Source of the DNA: Aquipluma nitroreducens | GTDB taxonomy: Bacteria > Bacteroidota > Bacteroidia > Bacteroidales > Prolixibacteraceae | Reading direction: 5' to 3' | Length of the DNA: 64,000 nt | Assembly (NCBI RefSeq): GCF_009689585.1 | Contig: NZ_AP018694.1 | Coordinates: 868,001-932,000 of the forward strand | Part shown: positions 42,067-49,267 of the stretch, in pieces | Position numbering within the stretch: position 1 is the first letter of the stretch | How the letters are laid out: every line of letters begins with the position of its first letter | Made by a program: the position numbers and the translations under genes | The notes under the pieces: model-generated | The model's input: only the letters and a program-made list of their open reading frames with translations | Databases searched by the model: none | Told to the model about the DNA's origin: nothing

Positions 42067-42104
42067 ACAAAGGCGATCACTCCAAACGATCGCCTTTGTT
42101 TTTT
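42067..42104 (+). terminator. Intrinsic terminator after the Skp-like gene
   Basis: ACAAAGGCGATC (42067-42078) pairs perfectly with GATCGCCTTTGT (42088-42099) around a nine-base loop, followed by a T run. Confidence 0.9.
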
Positions 42105-42193
42105 ATGACAAATTTTCGTTTCTCCCTTAATGGTAAAACCCGCTTCGGCTGTTTTATAGATAGCTATTGCTATTTTAACAGCAAATCAAACAT

Positions 42194-42201
42194 TATCTTT
42201 G
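42194..42201 (+). promoter_or_regulatory. Promoter -7 box of the S9 peptidase gene
   Basis: TATCTTTG matches TAnnTTTG, 23 bases before the ATG at 42225. The nearest TTG (42167-42169) is 24 bases upstream, slightly far. Confidence 0.45.
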
Positions 42202-42224
42202 AAAACAATAATGATATCCTCCAT

Positions 42225-45032
42225 ATGAAACGAGCCTGCTCTTTGCTTTTGATTTTTTCATTAAGCTTTCTGCCAATCCTGAATGCCCAGGTAACCAACA
42301 AAAAACCGCTTACTACCAACGATTTTGCGGCATGGAAAGTGATTAACAACCCTATTATTTCAAGCGATGGCAAGTATACGGCCTTCGAAATCAACCCACA
42401 AAAAGGCGATGGTAATTTAGTTTTGAAGACAATTGATTCGAAAAAAGAGGATCTGCTGGCAAGAGGCTATTCCGCTAGTTTTTCTCCTGAATCGGATTTT
42501 ATCGTGTATAAAATCAAGCAACCGGCTGATTCGACAAGGAATGCCAAAAAGAAAAAAGTAAAGAAAGAGCTCATGCCAAAGGATAGTATTGGCATTTTGG
42601 TCTTTAAACATCATAAGGTTTATGCATTCCCGAATTTGAAGCAGTTTTCTCTCCCAAAAGAAAATGCCCAATGGGTTGCTTTTACTACTGACATGAAGAA
42701 GCCCAAAAAGGAAGGGGAAAAGAAGGGAAATGAGCCGAAAACAAAGAAAAATGATGATCAGGCTGATCAAAAAAGCCAGTTAGTTTTGTTTAATGCCGAA
42801 ACGGGCGACACGGTTTGTTTCCAAAACATTAGCGAATATTATTATGCGCCGCTGGGACACAGCATAATGTTTATCCGCCAAACCAAAGACTCGCTCGACC
42901 GCGCTGAAGTTCTGACTTTTGATACCAAAACCCGCAAAACGAATGTGATTTTCGATCGTCTGGGAACAGCGAAAAAAATTGCTTCCGATCAACAAGGCGG
43001 AAAGCTGGGGTTCGTATTTTCTGCCGACACAACCAGAGAGAAAGCATATAGTTTGTACTACGGAACACTGACAACCGGCGAACCAAAAGCAGTTGTTTCA
43101 CCCGATCAGTCGGGGCTTCCCCTGGGATGGTCTCCTAGCGAATTTGGCGATGTGTCGTTTTCGGATAATGGTCAACTGCTTTATTTTGGGACTAATCGCA
43201 AACCTAAGGCTGAGCCCAAAGATACGCTTCTGGAAGACGAAAAGCCTGTGCTTGACATCTGGAACTGGCAAGACAAAGAATTGCAGCCTGAACAAAAAAT
43301 CAACCTCGAAAAAGAAAAAAAACGGAGCTACAAGGCGGTTTATCTGATCGATAAGGACAAATTTGTACAATTGGCTGATCCTGCAATACGAGATATTCGG
43401 ACCATTCAAAAAGGAAACGGACATGTTGCTCTCGGAATCGACCAGTCGCCCTATAAACTGGCTTCATCATGGACTGGCAAGTCGAATGCAGATTATTACC
43501 TGGTGGATGTCGAAACAGGTACTAAACGGTTGATTGTTCAGGATAAATCGGTGGTTTCGCTCTCGCCGGGTGGCAACTTTATCGCCTGGTACGATCCTTC
43601 CGACTCGTGTTATTATTCACGTTCAACCAACATCAGTTCAGAGGAAGTCAACAAACTGACTAAACAAGTTCATGTTTCGTTTTGCGACGAACGCTGGGAT
43701 ATGCCAGGCGACCCCAATCCATATGGAATAGCTGGCTGGTCGGAAAACGATAAATCTGTTTTCATCTACGACCGATATGACATCTGGCGGATCGATCTGG
43801 AAGGAAGTAAAGTTCCGGTAAGTGCAACACACAACTATGGAAGAAAAAATTCGCTCCGGTTGAGGTACGAAAAACTTGATCCTGAAGAAGAATTTATTGA
43901 TACCAGCAAACCAATTATCGTCAGTGCATTTGACGAACGCAATAAATCGGATGGTTTCTTTAATGCTGATTTGCGAAACTATACGGATCCGCGATTACTG
44001 ATCATGGAAGATTTTCGTTTTGAAAACCTAAAAAAAGCAAAAAAGGCCGATGCCCTGATTTGGACCCGTGAAGATGTAAACGAATCACCGGCAGTATGGA
44101 CTGCGCCTATGACTTTCGAGCGCAAGCATCAACTTTCGGATGCAAACCCACAGCAAAAGCAATTTGTTTGGCCTGGAGTAAGGTTAGTCCACTGGACTTC
44201 ATTCTCCGGAAAGCAACTTGAAGGGCTTTTGTATTTTCCTGAAACCATCGATCCGGAGAAAAAATACCCGATGATCGTGTACTTTTACGAGCGGAATGCT
44301 GATAATCTGCACGTTTACACAGCACCGGCGCCAACTCGTTCAACCGTTAACCGCACCTATTTCACCAGCAACGATTACATCGTTTTTATTCCAGACATTA
44401 CTTACGAGGAAGGGTATCCGGGACAGTCGGCATTTGATGCGATCGTAAGCGGAACTCAGTTTGTCAGCGACATGTTTCCGTTTATCGACCGCAAAAAAAT
44501 TGGAATTCAGGGACAAAGCTGGGGTGGCTATCAAACGGCATGGCTAATTACACAAACCAACATGTTTGCTGCTGCAATGGCTGGCGCTCCGGTTAGCAAC
44601 ATGACCAGTGCTTATGGTGGAATCCGATGGGAATCAGGAATATCGCGAATGCATCAATACGAAAACTCTCAAAGCCGCATAGGTGGAACGTTATGGGACA
44701 AACCGTTGCAATACATCGAAAACTCGCCATTGTTTTATGTGCCAAAGATAAATACTCCGTTGCTGATTATGCATAATGATAACGACGGAGCTGTGCCTTG
44801 GTACCAAGGAATTGAGTTATTCACTGCCATGCGCCGCCTCAACAAACCTGTGTGGATGCTTACCTACAACAACGAAGAGCACAACCTGAAAGCGGAAAGC
44901 TGGGCCAACCGGATGGATTTAACAATCCGCATGAAACAGTTTTTTGATCATTACCTGAAAGATGAAACCATGCCTTCATGGATGCAATTTGGGATACCAG
45001 CCATCCAAAAAGGAAAAGAGTTGGGATACTAA
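42225..45032 (+). CDS. S9 family prolyl oligopeptidase-type serine peptidase
   Basis: A 935-residue exported peptidase with a signal peptide (MKRACSLLLIFSLSFLPILN). A beta-propeller covers about residues 50-640, interrupted by a lysine-rich loop (about 150-185 of this reading). The alpha/beta-hydrolase domain holds S765 in GIQGQSWGGYQTAW, Asp in MHNDNDGAVPW and His in NNEEHNLK. The ATG at 42225 is chosen because it starts the signal peptide and follows the -7 box at 42194; the frame to 42096 overlaps the preceding terminator. Peptide degradation in the periplasm is the likely role. Confidence 0.93.
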   Translation: MKRACSLLLIFSLSFLPILNAQVTNKKPLTTNDFAAWKVINNPIISSDGKYTAFEINPQKGDGNLVLKTIDSKKEDLLARGYSASFSPESDFIVYKIKQPADSTRNAKKKKVKKELMPKDSIGILVFKHHKVYAFPNLKQFSLPKENAQWVAFTTDMKKPKKEGEKKGNEPKTKKNDDQADQKSQLVLFNAETGDTVCFQNISEYYYAPLGHSIMFIRQTKDSLDRAEVLTFDTKTRKTNVIFDRLGTAKKIASDQQGGKLGFVFSADTTREKAYSLYYGTLTTGEPKAVVSPDQSGLPLGWSPSEFGDVSFSDNGQLLYFGTNRKPKAEPKDTLLEDEKPVLDIWNWQDKELQPEQKINLEKEKKRSYKAVYLIDKDKFVQLADPAIRDIRTIQKGNGHVALGIDQSPYKLASSWTGKSNADYYLVDVETGTKRLIVQDKSVVSLSPGGNFIAWYDPSDSCYYSRSTNISSEEVNKLTKQVHVSFCDERWDMPGDPNPYGIAGWSENDKSVFIYDRYDIWRIDLEGSKVPVSATHNYGRKNSLRLRYEKLDPEEEFIDTSKPIIVSAFDERNKSDGFFNADLRNYTDPRLLIMEDFRFENLKKAKKADALIWTREDVNESPAVWTAPMTFERKHQLSDANPQQKQFVWPGVRLVHWTSFSGKQLEGLLYFPETIDPEKKYPMIVYFYERNADNLHVYTAPAPTRSTVNRTYFTSNDYIVFIPDITYEEGYPGQSAFDAIVSGTQFVSDMFPFIDRKKIGIQGQSWGGYQTAWLITQTNMFAAAMAGAPVSNMTSAYGGIRWESGISRMHQYENSQSRIGGTLWDKPLQYIENSPLFYVPKINTPLLIMHNDNDGAVPWYQGIELFTAMRRLNKPVWMLTYNNEEHNLKAESWANRMDLTIRMKQFFDHYLKDETMPSWMQFGIPAIQKGKELGY

Positions 45033-45035
45033 AAG

Positions 45036-45296
45036 AGTTATGAGTTATAAATTATCATTGGTGTCCGGTTAAAAATCCGAGATTCTTCGCTTCGCTCAGA
45101 ATGACAGCTATTTATAAGTGTATTGAGGAGGGTAGTGTAGGTTTGCGGCTTCGCCGCAAACCTACACTACCCTCCTCACACAACTCGTTGATTGTCATTT
45201 CGAACGAAGTGAGAAATCTCAGCTTAACATGTATTGAGAAGATTTTGCCATACAATAGTGAGAAATCAGTAGTGAGAAAACTTATAACTCGTAACT
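45036..45296. repeat. Nested triple inverted repeat between convergent genes
   Basis: Outer arms 45036-45050 and 45282-45296 pair with one mismatch (AGTTATGAGTTATAA type). Middle arms 45079-45106 and 45193-45220 are inverted copies of a 28-base word of the TGTCATTTCGAACGAAGTGA type. The inner arms 45124-45149 and 45153-45178 form a perfect 26-bp hairpin with a three-base loop. The outer right arm covers the stop of the epimerase gene. Confidence 0.85.
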
Positions 45297-46479
45297 ATCG
45301 TGACATTACTTCGAGGCACATACGGCTGTTGTGATAGGGACATTTCCAGAAACCAGCCTTATCGCCGTTACGGTTTGGTATTCCATCTTCTGAAATGCTC
45401 CAAAACCACTCCCCTCCTGCCCGATCAACCAGATTTTCAGAAATATACTTCCAGCATTTTTCTGCCTTTGCGAGCCATTCCGGATTACCTGTCAATTCAT
45501 AAGCATTCAGAAAACCGACGACCGCTTCAGACTGCACCCACCAGTGCCGGTCGGTTTCCAAATGACCCTTATCCAGTTCGTACACCATACTTCCATCGGC
45601 ACGCAATCCATCTTTACAGGCAGCCTCTGCCACTTTAATGCAAATTGGCTGAACTCTGGCCAGTAATACGGCGTCACCCAAAACCCTCGTGGCTTCATCA
45701 ATCAACCACGAAGCTTCAATATCGTGACCATACGACACAATGGTAGATTTCGCATTCAGGTTTTCATCGAAAAACAAATCCAGGTGGTAAGTCTTTCCAT
45801 TCACAATCTTTTCAATAAAAATCAGGATCAGGTTGCGCAATTGTTTCGCTAATTCTTCGTCTTTCCAAACCCTGTACAGATTTGTGTAGGCTTCCAGAAT
45901 GTGCAAATGCGTGTTCATGGTTTTCTTCTCGTTCTCGTCTTTTTCGCTTAACCGCAAGTCTTCGAGCAAAACCCAGTCGCGGCTGTAAGCTTCAAAATAA
46001 CCGTTTAACTCCGGATCGAAACTGCGCTTTTCAATGATCCGGAAAAGATCAATGGCCGTCTGAAGGCTCGATTCGTCACCAGAAGCGCGGTAATGTTCGG
46101 TAAACGCGTAGGTGAAAAATGCCTGCGAATAAATCTGCTTTTTGGTATCGACAGGCTTTCCATCATAGGAAACCATCCAATAGGTTCCGCCAAATTCCTG
46201 ATCGAAAAAATGGTTCAGAATATAATCTTTCGCGCGGTTCGCCATTTCAAGATAAAGCGGGTTTTTCTCCTGAAGGTATGCCGATGAAAACGACCAAAGA
46301 ATGCGTGCATTCAGGATTCCGCCTTTATCGGCTTCCGGAACAAGCTGCCCATTTCCTTTAATTTGCCCATAAAAGCCGCCATTTTTAGTATCGATCATTT
46401 TTTCGGACCAAAAAGGCAGGATATTTTGCGTCAACTCATCTCTAGCTTGCTGTTTGAGTTCTATAAATTTGTCTTTCAT
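45295..46479 (-). CDS. Mannobiose/cellobiose 2-epimerase (AGE family)
   Basis: Converts the reducing-end sugar of beta-1,4-mannobiose to glucose, giving mannosylglucose; the family also acts on cellobiose. The (alpha/alpha)6 barrel of 394 residues shows the conserved NARILWSFSSAY, MNTHLHILEAYTNLYR, SYGHDIEASWLIDEA and DRHWWVQSEAVVGF segments with the catalytic histidines. It is the last gene of the operon behind the GPH transporter and GH130 phosphorylase. That context makes mannobiose the more probable substrate. Cytoplasmic; no signal peptide. Confidence 0.93.
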   Translation of the reverse strand: MKDKFIELKQQARDELTQNILPFWSEKMIDTKNGGFYGQIKGNGQLVPEADKGGILNARILWSFSSAYLQEKNPLYLEMANRAKDYILNHFFDQEFGGTYWMVSYDGKPVDTKKQIYSQAFFTYAFTEHYRASGDESSLQTAIDLFRIIEKRSFDPELNGYFEAYSRDWVLLEDLRLSEKDENEKKTMNTHLHILEAYTNLYRVWKDEELAKQLRNLILIFIEKIVNGKTYHLDLFFDENLNAKSTIVSYGHDIEASWLIDEATRVLGDAVLLARVQPICIKVAEAACKDGLRADGSMVYELDKGHLETDRHWWVQSEAVVGFLNAYELTGNPEWLAKAEKCWKYISENLVDRAGGEWFWSISEDGIPNRNGDKAGFWKCPYHNSRMCLEVMSR

Positions 46480-46555: not shown

Positions 46556-47983
46556 TCACTGTTTATTTCTTTTTAGATTAAGTTGTTCCGAATTTTCCTT
46601 TACTTTTTTATCTGAAAGTGGGTAGAACATCATACCAACAAAGGCAAGTACGCAACATGCCGCAGGCATTAAACTGATCATGATATGCTCTCCGAAAATG
46701 GTTTCTGAACTTTGTTGAATCGCATCAGGCATATAATGGAATACGGCCAGAATCCATCCACTCATGGCTGAGCCAAAAGCCCATCCCAATTTTTGCGACA
46801 TCGACGAGGATGAGAAAATTAATCCTGTTGCACGGCGCCCGGTAAGTAATTCCTGATGATCAACAATATCGGCAAACATCGACCACAACAATGGCAAAAC
46901 GTATCCGGCGAAAATGGAAATCAGAAACTGAAAAATCAGAATCCAGGTGATACTATTCGGAATGAAATAAAAGCCTGTACTTAATACTCCTGCAATTAAC
47001 ATCGCGATCATATAAGTTTTCCTCTTACCGTATTTTGCTGAAATTGAAGGGGCTGCCATTACTCCTATTAAGTTTGCCGCCTGACCAACAAGAAAATAAA
47101 TTGTAGTCATATCCCAACCGGTTCCAGTCATCCGATAGTTCACTTTCACGTAATCTCTGAAAAAATAAATCGCAACACTGTCGCGGACAGCATTAAAAAG
47201 CAAGGCAGACAGGCCGGTTGCAACCAAAATCCACCAAGGTGCATTTTGAAATAAATCTTTCAAATCCTTCTTGATCGAAACATTTTCCTCGCTCTCAATT
47301 TGTACGACCCGTTCTTTTGTCCAACTGAAACACAACAGAAACAAGATCACGCAAATCATGCCTATTACTCCTACACCCATCACCCATCCTACCGGTGAAG
47401 TGCTTATTGAAGATTCAGCAGTCTGAGTGGCTTTGGAAAGATCTACCGTGCCAAATGTTTTGGAAAAAAAGTCGATGAGCGGTTGCAACAACATGAAGGT
47501 TACAAAACTGCCAATGAAAGCAAATGACATTCGGTAAGAAGAAAGTGAATTTCGTTCAGTAGGATCGGAAGAAATAGCTCCAAGTAATGATGCATATGGC
47601 ACATTGATCATTGAATACACGATCATCATCAAAGAGTAAGTCACATAGGCGTAGATTAACTTTCCTGTTTGACCAAAATCAGGGGCGAAGAAAGTAAAAG
47701 CTCCCATTACGGCAAATGGAAGGGCGAACCATAATAGGTATGGGCGATATTTTCCATAGCGGCTTTTAGTGCGGTCGCTGATAATTCCAACAAAAACATC
47801 AAAGAACGAATTCCACAAACGTGCAACAAGGAACATCGTTCCAGCCGCGGCTGCCGTAATACCAAGGACATCGGTATAAAAAAACAAGGAATACATTCCG
47901 AAAATTTTCCAGAACATCGACGAAGCAGCGTCGCCAAATCCGTAACCAATTTTCTCTTTCAGACTGATTTTTTCAGTAGCCAT
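46556..47983 (-). CDS. GPH-family sugar:cation symporter
   Basis: A 475-residue inner-membrane transporter of the glycoside-pentoside-hexuronide (MelB-like) family, with about twelve helices. The N-terminal KIGYGFGDAASSMFWKI and the RTKSRYGKYRPYLLW loop are hallmarks. It sits between the GH130 phosphorylase and the 2-epimerase, so it most likely brings beta-1,4-mannobiose or a related disaccharide into the cytoplasm with sodium or protons. The same gene trio is known from Bacteroides fragilis mannan metabolism. Confidence 0.93.
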   Translation of the reverse strand: MATEKISLKEKIGYGFGDAASSMFWKIFGMYSLFFYTDVLGITAAAAGTMFLVARLWNSFFDVFVGIISDRTKSRYGKYRPYLLWFALPFAVMGAFTFFAPDFGQTGKLIYAYVTYSLMMIVYSMINVPYASLLGAISSDPTERNSLSSYRMSFAFIGSFVTFMLLQPLIDFFSKTFGTVDLSKATQTAESSISTSPVGWVMGVGVIGMICVILFLLCFSWTKERVVQIESEENVSIKKDLKDLFQNAPWWILVATGLSALLFNAVRDSVAIYFFRDYVKVNYRMTGTGWDMTTIYFLVGQAANLIGVMAAPSISAKYGKRKTYMIAMLIAGVLSTGFYFIPNSITWILIFQFLISIFAGYVLPLLWSMFADIVDHQELLTGRRATGLIFSSSSMSQKLGWAFGSAMSGWILAVFHYMPDAIQQSSETIFGEHIMISLMPAACCVLAFVGMMFYPLSDKKVKENSEQLNLKRNKQ

Positions 47984-48020
47984 TATATAAGTTTGTTTTT
48001 AGTTAGGTTTTCATTTACAA

Positions 48021-48084
48021 CGTTACGAGTTTCGGGATACAAGTTATGAGTTAATTTACCCGAAACCGCATCTCGCATCCCGGA
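48021..48084. repeat. GTTACGAGTT-family inverted repeat between GH130 and transporter genes
   Basis: GTTTCGGG (48029-48036) pairs with CCCGAAAC (48059-48066), and the loop contains AAGTTATGAGTTAA. GTTACGAGTT begins at 48022. It could modulate the transcript between the two genes. Confidence 0.6.
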
Positions 48085-48085
48085 A

Positions 48086-49267
48086 CTATTTCATTCTGAG
48101 TATCTCCAGATTTCTGGCAATCTGCACTTTCAGGGTTTCTACCGAAGCCGCAGAACGATAGCCATCGGCTGGAGAATTCAGGCAATAATCGACCAGCTTA
48201 TCAACTGTTGATGTTGCCACATGCATGCGGGTATCCGAAGAGGCATAATAAAGAAATACCTTCCCGTCCTCATCGGCAATCCAACCATTGGTGAAAAGTA
48301 CATTCGATACATCACCGATGCGTTCTTCGCCAATCGGCCCCATCAAATGACCTGCGGGTTCAGCAATCAGTTTTGACGGATCTTCAAGGGCAGTCATATA
48401 AAGGTAAATCACGTAACGCAATCCGGCAGCACAACCACGCACACCATGTGCCAGATGCAACCAGCCTTTATCGGTTTTAATCGGGTGCGGGCCTTCGCCG
48501 TTCTTCACCTCTTTTATGGTATGGTAGTAGCGAAAATTGATGATTTTTTCTTCCTTGATTTCAGCATTGGTCATGTCGTCAACCAGCGCCCAGCCAATGC
48601 CACCACCACTTCCGGCATCAATAAAACCATCTTGTGGGCGGGTGTATAAAGCATATTTCCCATCAACAAATTCGTTATGAAGCACCACATTGCGCTGCTG
48701 ACTTTTGGTTTTCAGATCAGGTAGGCGCTCCCAGGTCAGCAAATCTTTGGTTCGTACAATTCCGGCAGCAGCAACTGCTGATGACAAATCGCCCGGCGCA
48801 GCATTCGGGTCTTTGCGTTCTGAGCAGAAAACGCCATAGATCCAACCGTCTTCATGAGCCGTTAAACGCATGTCGTAAACATTGGTGTCCGGAATGTCGG
48901 TTTCAGGAATAGTTACCGGATAATCCCAAAATCGGAAATTATCGATTCCATTGGGGCTTTCGGCAATCGCAAAAAACGATTTACGGTCGACACCTTCCAC
49001 GCGAACCACCAGAATGTATTTGCCGTTCCATTTGATTGCTCCTGAATTCATGGTCGCATTCATGCCGATGCGCTCCATCAGGAAAGGATTGGTCTGCTTG
49101 TCCAAATCGTACCGCCAGATTACCGGAGTATGGGCAGCTGTTAGAATCGGATTTTTATATCGATCGAAAACACCATTGCCATTTTTAACCTTTTTGTTTT
49201 TAGCCGACAATAATTCTTCGTGCTTGTCGAGCAGCTTATGAACCTTCTTTTTAAAATTCGATGCCAT
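48086..49267 (-). CDS. GH130 4-O-beta-D-mannosyl-D-glucose phosphorylase
   Basis: Phosphorolyses mannosylglucose to mannose 1-phosphate and glucose in the cytoplasm. The five-bladed propeller of 393 residues shows [36 protein letters not shown] (D132 corresponds to the proposed proton donor), the phosphate-site segment [20 protein letters not shown] and [12 protein letters not shown] near the end. These features match the GH130_1 subfamily. First gene of the operon with the GPH transporter and the 2-epimerase. No mannanase or SusC/D pair is beside it, so polysaccharide cleavage must be encoded elsewhere. Confidence 0.94.

Follow-up and report, generated by a model that had tools for sequence, protein, structure and literature searches.

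REPs carrying a CGTC or TGTC tag have been found in five phyla, including Bacteroidetes; in the available part of that survey, no dedicated transposase is known for them and their tag-inward (TT) arrangement is called rare (PMC3733652). The repeat described here recalls these units, as that part of the survey presents them, in that its arms start with TGTC-AT and are paired, as dissimilar partners, around a structured spacer; unlike them, its arms have tags that face inwards, a CTC tail and a weak stem, and ride inside IS4-type ends (PMC3733652). MITEs provide another point of comparison. BrickBuilt and other MITEs of Porphyromonas gingivalis have terminal inverted repeats (TIRs) in common with a full-length IS, the parent being IS5 in the accessible portion of the report (PMC4596501), and a parental IS982 element is named for a MITE of Cardinium, again in the portion accessible (PMC9769881). 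Like such IS-derived MITEs of the Bacteroidota, the element considered here is short, lacks a transposase gene and can be tied to a full-length IS; unlike those derived from IS5 or IS982, it would have an IS4 (DUF4372) parent, and it is associated with 9-bp duplications and a nested-palindrome interior with a covarying core.

Template switching within quasipalindromes has reportedly been studied in yeast genes and in an E. coli mutation assay. It has also been described for rRNA and microRNA; according to the part of this work that is available, a matched change found together with a loop inversion is expected to support it most strongly, and it is actively debated whether long hairpins owe their perfect pairing to selection or to mutation that copies (PMC8794818). 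The core of the present element resembles quasipalindromes in its matched changes on both arms and in its loop inversions, but differs from the known cases in that template switching would act here on a dispersed bacterial mini-element. Selection and copying should be separable in this family, because it offers many copies, recognisable ends, at least one in situ orthologous set and orientable loops.

The locus lies in a 64,000-nucleotide stretch of the Aquipluma nitroreducens genome (hereafter the window). Judging from sequence comparison, it very probably holds a 206-bp non-autonomous element (MITE) of a group of IS4-family transposons (DUF4372 + DDE transposase), inserted between two convergent genes. 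A spectacular nested repeat can thus be composite, made of a host hairpin and a single insertion, and the element family provides a carrier, open to testing, of REP-like units for which no transposase is known. Titles and abstract starts of the open-access literature (MITE/IS4/Bacteroidetes, palindromic repeats, DUF4372, REPs) yielded no account of this family, and the arm sequence strings were absent from the open-access papers searched.

Layers of the nested repeat

Three concentric inverted pairs between convergent genes had been described in a sequence-only reading of the window, and all three are present (table 1). The outer arms measure 15 nt with one mismatch, or 21 nt at 86% when extended; the middle arms measure 28 nt and are complementary at 22/28 positions by hand count, the repeat search having left them unreported as a pair; the inner hairpin is a perfect 26-bp stem with a 3-nt loop. 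Among perfect stems of the 64-kb window with loops of 3–10 nt, the runner-up to this core reaches 14 bp, and the longest stem in each of five simulated 64-kb windows was 9–11 bp. Simulation under two models, with 150 stretches of 331 bp for each model, never produced a pair resembling the outer arms (15 nt, no more than one mismatch, at least 100 bp apart). The strand spanning 45033–45298 (266 nt) is predicted to fold into a single nested hairpin at −114.3 kcal/mol (z −12.6), and an Rfam scan of 44900–45400 returned 15 matches with E ≤ 1, all below the gathering cut-off and 12 of them to microRNA models. From their sequences, we take the left and right convergent neighbours to be an S9 peptidase-like and an AGE-family epimerase-like gene, respectively; beyond the latter, 46556–49267 presumably holds transporter-like and glycoside phosphorylase-like genes, probably of a mannan-type sugar cluster.

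Table 1. Features of the nested repeat and its neighbours, in window coordinates.
Feature	Position	Strand	Remarks
S9 peptidase-like ORF (presumed)	42096..45032	+	mechanical ORF from a TTG; true start probably internal
Outer left arm AGTTATGAGTTATAA, probably host spacer hairpin	45036..45050	.	absent from L002 and L003; other hairpins in G018 and G003
Putative left copy of decayed 9-bp target duplication ATAAATTAT	45047..45055	.	6/9 versus 45262–45270; register from family
Whole 206-bp MITE-like element	45056..45261	+	boundaries from L002, L003, L046 and L056 plus duplication register
Left terminal inverted repeat CATTGGTGTCCGGTTAAAA	45056..45074	+	IS4-family transposons have the same ends or close variants
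Left middle arm, TGTC-tagged REP-like unit, tag inward	45079..45106	.	
Core, perfect 26-bp hairpin	45124..45178	.	arms 45124–45149 and 45153–45178; loop TTC 45150–45152
Right middle arm, TGTC-tagged REP-like unit, tag inward	45193..45220	.	
Right terminal inverted repeat ATTTTGCCATACAATAGTG, damaged	45243..45261	-	CCATACA, CCGGACA in many other copies; from copy comparison
Putative right copy of decayed target duplication AGAAATCAG	45262..45270	.	6/9 match only
Outer right arm TTATAACTCGTAACT, probably host spacer hairpin	45282..45296	.	
AGE-family epimerase-like ORF (presumed), right convergent neighbour	45295..46479	-	ORF call

The genome search that the sequence-only reading had proposed (5.71 Mb, one contig) recovered two more full copies, nested in the same way, L002 (83% over 217 query bases) and L003 (79% over 209), together with partial copies, namely a left half (L005) and a degenerate one (L009). 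Sequence agreement among the full copies begins at (C)ATTGGTGTCC..., stops near ...AC(A/T)A(T/C)AG and is lost on either side, which places the ends of the element between the outer and the middle layers. The TIRs, overlooked by the earlier reading, are located there. Outer arms were ruled out as element ends: neither L002 nor L003 has them, and different hairpins occupy this spot in relatives. Elsewhere in the genome, about a dozen partial matches to AGTTATGAGTTATAA exist; they are weak, with E values from 0.008 to 4.6 for the 11 that were read.

The same reading had suggested comparing the syntenic spacer among relatives. Across 22 relatives of the same genus, the two flanking genes are adjacent only in G017 and G018, being apart, on different contigs or represented by a single match elsewhere; in both of these readable relatives the orthologous spacer is devoid of the element. 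At the same place, the G018 spacer has a different hairpin, GTTAAGAGTTTCGGGTT...AACCCGAAACTCTTAAC, and G003 displays yet another one 3' of the same peptidase gene. Given their absence from L002 and L003 and the different hairpins of the relatives, the outer arms probably represent a host spacer hairpin lying outside the mobile element, and the most likely scenario is an insertion into the loop of this hairpin, between the two convergent genes.

Within the genome, the arm pattern (up to three mismatches) occurs seven times, six of them in the three full copies and one in the degenerate fourth; at this sensitivity, middle and inner layers always travel together. The suggestion that the structure had been inserted in layers is accordingly right only in part: the outer layer is probably separate, whereas the middle and inner layers belong to one element. 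Overall, the nested repeat is probably a composite whose layers have two origins, a host hairpin and one insertion.

Element ends, target duplications and IS4-family transposons

Many elements share the conserved TIRs CATTGGTGTCCGGTTAAAA / ...CCGGACAATAGTG, and the interior follows a common plan in which two inward-facing, TGTC-tagged arms surround a near-perfect hairpin and move with it as a unit. A scripted pairing of TIRs (up to three mismatches) delineated 43 elements with differing flanks; this set replaces a looser first survey of 67 entries, some of them overlapping. Read in the register (9 bp)C...G(9 bp), the flanking duplication is perfect in 15/43 elements, L002 included (9/9), and reaches at least 7/9 in 24/43, versus approximately 1.6 with permuted flanks, the signal being mostly at background in shifted registers. 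Among the 19/43 that fall below 7/9 are five elements (L101, L112, L160, L168 and L171) with a false-looking right end, none of which is found among the 24. The flanks of the window copy match at 6/9 positions only; because of this and of its damaged right TIR (table 1), this copy is probably old and would now be immobile.

At 206 bp, the window element has room for at most 68 codons and contains no transposase gene, the IS4 transposases considered here being encoded by frames of the 378–416 aa class. A link with a complete transposase gene is seen at L145, where the exact 18-base TIR stands at one end of a gene for a 394-aa protein with DUF4372 and DDE_Tnp_1 domains (Pfam), assigned to the IS4 family by NCBIfam at 260 bits versus a cut-off of 115. 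The ends of L145 read ATTGGTGTCCGGTTAAAA and TTAACCGGACAGCAGT, and no flanking duplication was recognisable. At L169, the exact TIR lies beside a transposase fragment scoring just under the DDE_Tnp_1 cut-off (21.7 versus 23). Within the genus, L264 of G020 is a 395-aa open frame bounded by CATTAGTGTCCGGTTAA...TTAACCGGACACTAGTG and by the duplication ATTTTTTTT, with a TIR that departs from that of the element by one mismatch in the first 17 positions and three in 19. Six uninterrupted IS4 frames, falling into three types, were counted in the own genome, the nearest in its ends being L194, whose TIR differs at 3/18 positions and whose duplication is 9/9. We examined 35 IS4 loci, comprising three of these six, 29 from the family list, L353, L354 and L145; paired ends with a 9/9 duplication were observed at 18/35, L283 reached 8/9 and several others are truncated by a contig end. 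The script chose the end positions freely, and the 18 resulting pairs share one form (CA or TA ... TG or TA). We file the element with the MITEs of IS4-family transposons because of its ends, its register and the length of its duplication; an IS4 transposase would cut and paste it in trans.

Against this parentage weigh the 6/9 flanks and damaged right TIR of the window copy, the TIR differences of L194 and L264 and the missing duplication of L145, and carriers do not always harbour such a transposase. A search with the L264 transposase (1e-20) gave no match in 5/8 element-carrying genomes, Marinilabilia salmonicolor MSL42 among them, and G017 returned none to the L145 transposase at 1e-30. 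On the basis of these searches, the elements look orphaned in those carriers. Sunxiuqinia indica (G153 and G168, taken as one genome) has an IS4 element, L354, with CAATAGTGTCCGGTAAAAA ends, along with 13 TIR matches, 10 of which read ATTAGTGTCCGGTTAAAA. TIR halves adjoining other genes were considered as autonomous candidates and dropped (L140, and L125 solely on the position and size of its ORF).

Matches of some kind (E ≤ 0.001) were obtained in 11/61 genomes, the own genome included, and a family search at 1e-6, with few candidates scored per genome, detected matches in 25/140; since arm-only matches are included in both, several of the former being single arms, these figures are no counts of full elements. 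Within the genus, matches that span both arms and the core are confined to the own genome, G003 and G017. TIRs with at most one mismatch were detected in 30/140 family genomes, versus one match overall for a backward-read control, and the exact TIR is present in 91 stretches of named genomes, mostly Bacteroidota as judged by record title, including Marinilabilia, Alkaliflexus, Sunxiuqinia, Balneolia and Paludibacteraceae. In M. salmonicolor MSL42, the element query produced 67 BLAST matches, with self-matches on both strands included and 40 of 92 candidates scored. Plasmid and phage records gave no match to the element at E 1e-3 (blastn, distant mode). Several related forms were encountered in passing: copies bearing arms, some of them incomplete, and no core (G003:C8, L124 and L127), where, by eye, a short repeat at the L127 junction suggests a deletion; Marinilabilia copies of 44–114 bp reduced to their ends or to core-less arms (L156, L158, L124, L127 and L173), which could be a deletion series or precursors; and a shorter MITE-like copy in the own genome (L014 1501–1600, C1:1606941–1607040) that has different ends, CATTACTGACCGACTAAA...TAGTCGGTCAGCAAT, and contains part of a REP-like arm. 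A separate repeat family (L101, L111, L112, L126, L143, L160, L168 and L171), seen in Balneolia and Cryomorphaceae MAGs, combines the same TIR with a CCAGCGA-type interior.

Middle arms as REP-like units

The kinship of the middle arms with a dispersed bacterial repeat type, also proposed by the sequence-only reading, holds for the tag but not for stem, tail and dimer orientation. Both arms contain TGTCATT, and therefore the CGTC/TGTC tag followed by AT. The left arm forms at best a stem of 5+2 bp of its own with a 3-nt loop and the right arm has no such stable fold (z 0.19 and 0.50), versus stems of 8–9 bp with loops of 4–5 nt in CGTC-type REPs; the tail is CTC instead of mostly CCA, and the tags point inwards, versus predominantly tag-outside (HH) dimers. 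As stem, tail and dimer orientation all fail, we call the arms REP-like only. Free TGTC-tagged dimers built from units of this kind, with tags outside and no IS4-type ends, were noticed in g11 genomes (L216, L220 and L222).

Two other accounts of the whole structure have to be weighed here. In one, REP units would have been assembled and moved by a RAYT-type tyrosine transposase, the IS4-like ends being incidental. The TGTC tag that the middle arms share with CGTC-type REPs, as characterized in the available part of PMC3733652, points in this direction, as do the free dimers of like units; we nevertheless consider this account quite unlikely, because 9-bp duplications and TIRs occur in fixed register, the arm pattern is found in the own genome only inside the element, and many elements have the common TIR but no arms. 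In the other, the structure would be an ordinary, if elaborate, non-mobile terminator, as its convergent position and very stable predicted fold could suggest. This is hardly credible in view of the dispersed copies with the same ends, the two orthologous spacers without the element, and the location of both L002 and L003 between same-strand ORFs. The arms were expected to occur nowhere else in the genome, and relatives to show a simple terminator only, if the idea of a mobile element was wrong; that idea therefore survives, and the initial notion of a non-autonomous palindromic element is supported by the two full copies, the two empty spacers and the TIRs with 9-bp duplications seen familywide.

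Matched changes and loop inversion in the core

To compare cores, we retained hairpins with at least 16/20 pairs and a 3-nt loop; 19 of the 54 so obtained were dropped by eye as foreign to the elements, and 35 cores remained, those fetched later being left out of the counts. Changes were scored against the commonest pair at each position. Picking hairpins for good pairing cannot by itself give rise to matched double changes, although it does hide decayed cores. Over all 35 cores, 150 matched versus 25 unmatched cells were counted, a value reached by 0/2000 shuffles; because related copies share changes, cells are not separate events and these counts are inflated. Subfamilies A, B and C were tested apart, D and E only in the total. 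Subfamily A (seven Prolixibacteraceae copies) has 18 matched double changes versus two unmatched cells (0/2000 shuffles), or 11 versus two (again 0/2000) once the divergent L065, the source of seven of the 18, is removed. The figures are 18 versus 10 for the 12 Marinilabilia copies of subfamily B (0/2000) and three versus five for the four elements of subfamily C, a value that 62/2000 shuffles reach. A second count over all 26 pairs gave 22 both-side cells in A and 14 in B (11/12 cores, without L307), with 0/500 shuffles reaching them; one other measure was reached by two shuffles in B, and the signal collapses when the partner is slid.

Changes of transversion type make up 12/18 matched doubles in A, 9/18 in B and 90/150 overall (sorted by hand). 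Among the 25 unmatched cells, 22 are of transition type, with 9 G.T/T.G and 13 A.C/C.A, and give no sign of a preferred RNA strand. Loops can be oriented by the TIR. In the six well-oriented A copies, the loop reads TTC in four, AAA in L003 and GAA in L047; in the eight well-oriented B copies, it reads AAA in five, TTT in L146 and L294, and AAT in L295. Three copies in all thus display an inverted loop.

Matched changes and inverted loops fit template-switch copying: DNA synthesis would switch template between the core arms, so that either arm takes over changes arising in its partner and the loop is occasionally turned round. That the core stays perfect in this way seems to us nearly an even call. 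The earlier idea of a structure generated by replication or recombination was in this sense a good lead for the core, though not for the whole structure. Somewhat more tentatively, the system could be viewed as a self-mirroring core, in which template switching keeps a hairpin of approximately 20–26 bp near-perfect amid drift and sometimes flips its loop, combined with IS4-type ends that serve as a vehicle for TGTC REP-like units.

Selection for pairing is also compatible with the matched changes. The core may be kept perfect by selection, for instance on an RNA acting as a bidirectional terminator or as an mRNA 3'-end structure, a possibility that we place on the improbable side. Its position between convergent genes and the strongly folded strand speak for it. 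Yet the transversion-type doubles are impossible via G.U intermediates, the unmatched cells show no bias of G.U over A.C (9 versus 13 of 25), some loops are present as reverse complements, and no T-run follows the core. A nested copy situated at the same place, between two genes, in three g11 genomes (L325, L326 and L334, about 1500–1660) bears on both sides of the question: pairwise, the arms differ at 0–1/70 nt and the inner spacers by 10–29%, a near-invariance of the arms that favours selection, whereas the core itself differs by 4–10%, no less than the flanking coding side (3–12%). Since the arms are so nearly identical compared with spacers and core, it is the arms, and not the core, that appear constrained at this one locus, from small counts. 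No TIRs were recognisable at this copy. The start of the adjoining gene resembles a ferredoxin oxidoreductase, a name that we assume.

Judged by eye, G076 and G105 are separated at this locus by two matched stem changes, and G072 has unmatched ones. Three further G105 loci (L327, L339 and L352) contain the same nested interior within a third end type, CACTACTGTCCGACTAA, L339 with a 9-bp duplication as judged by eye.
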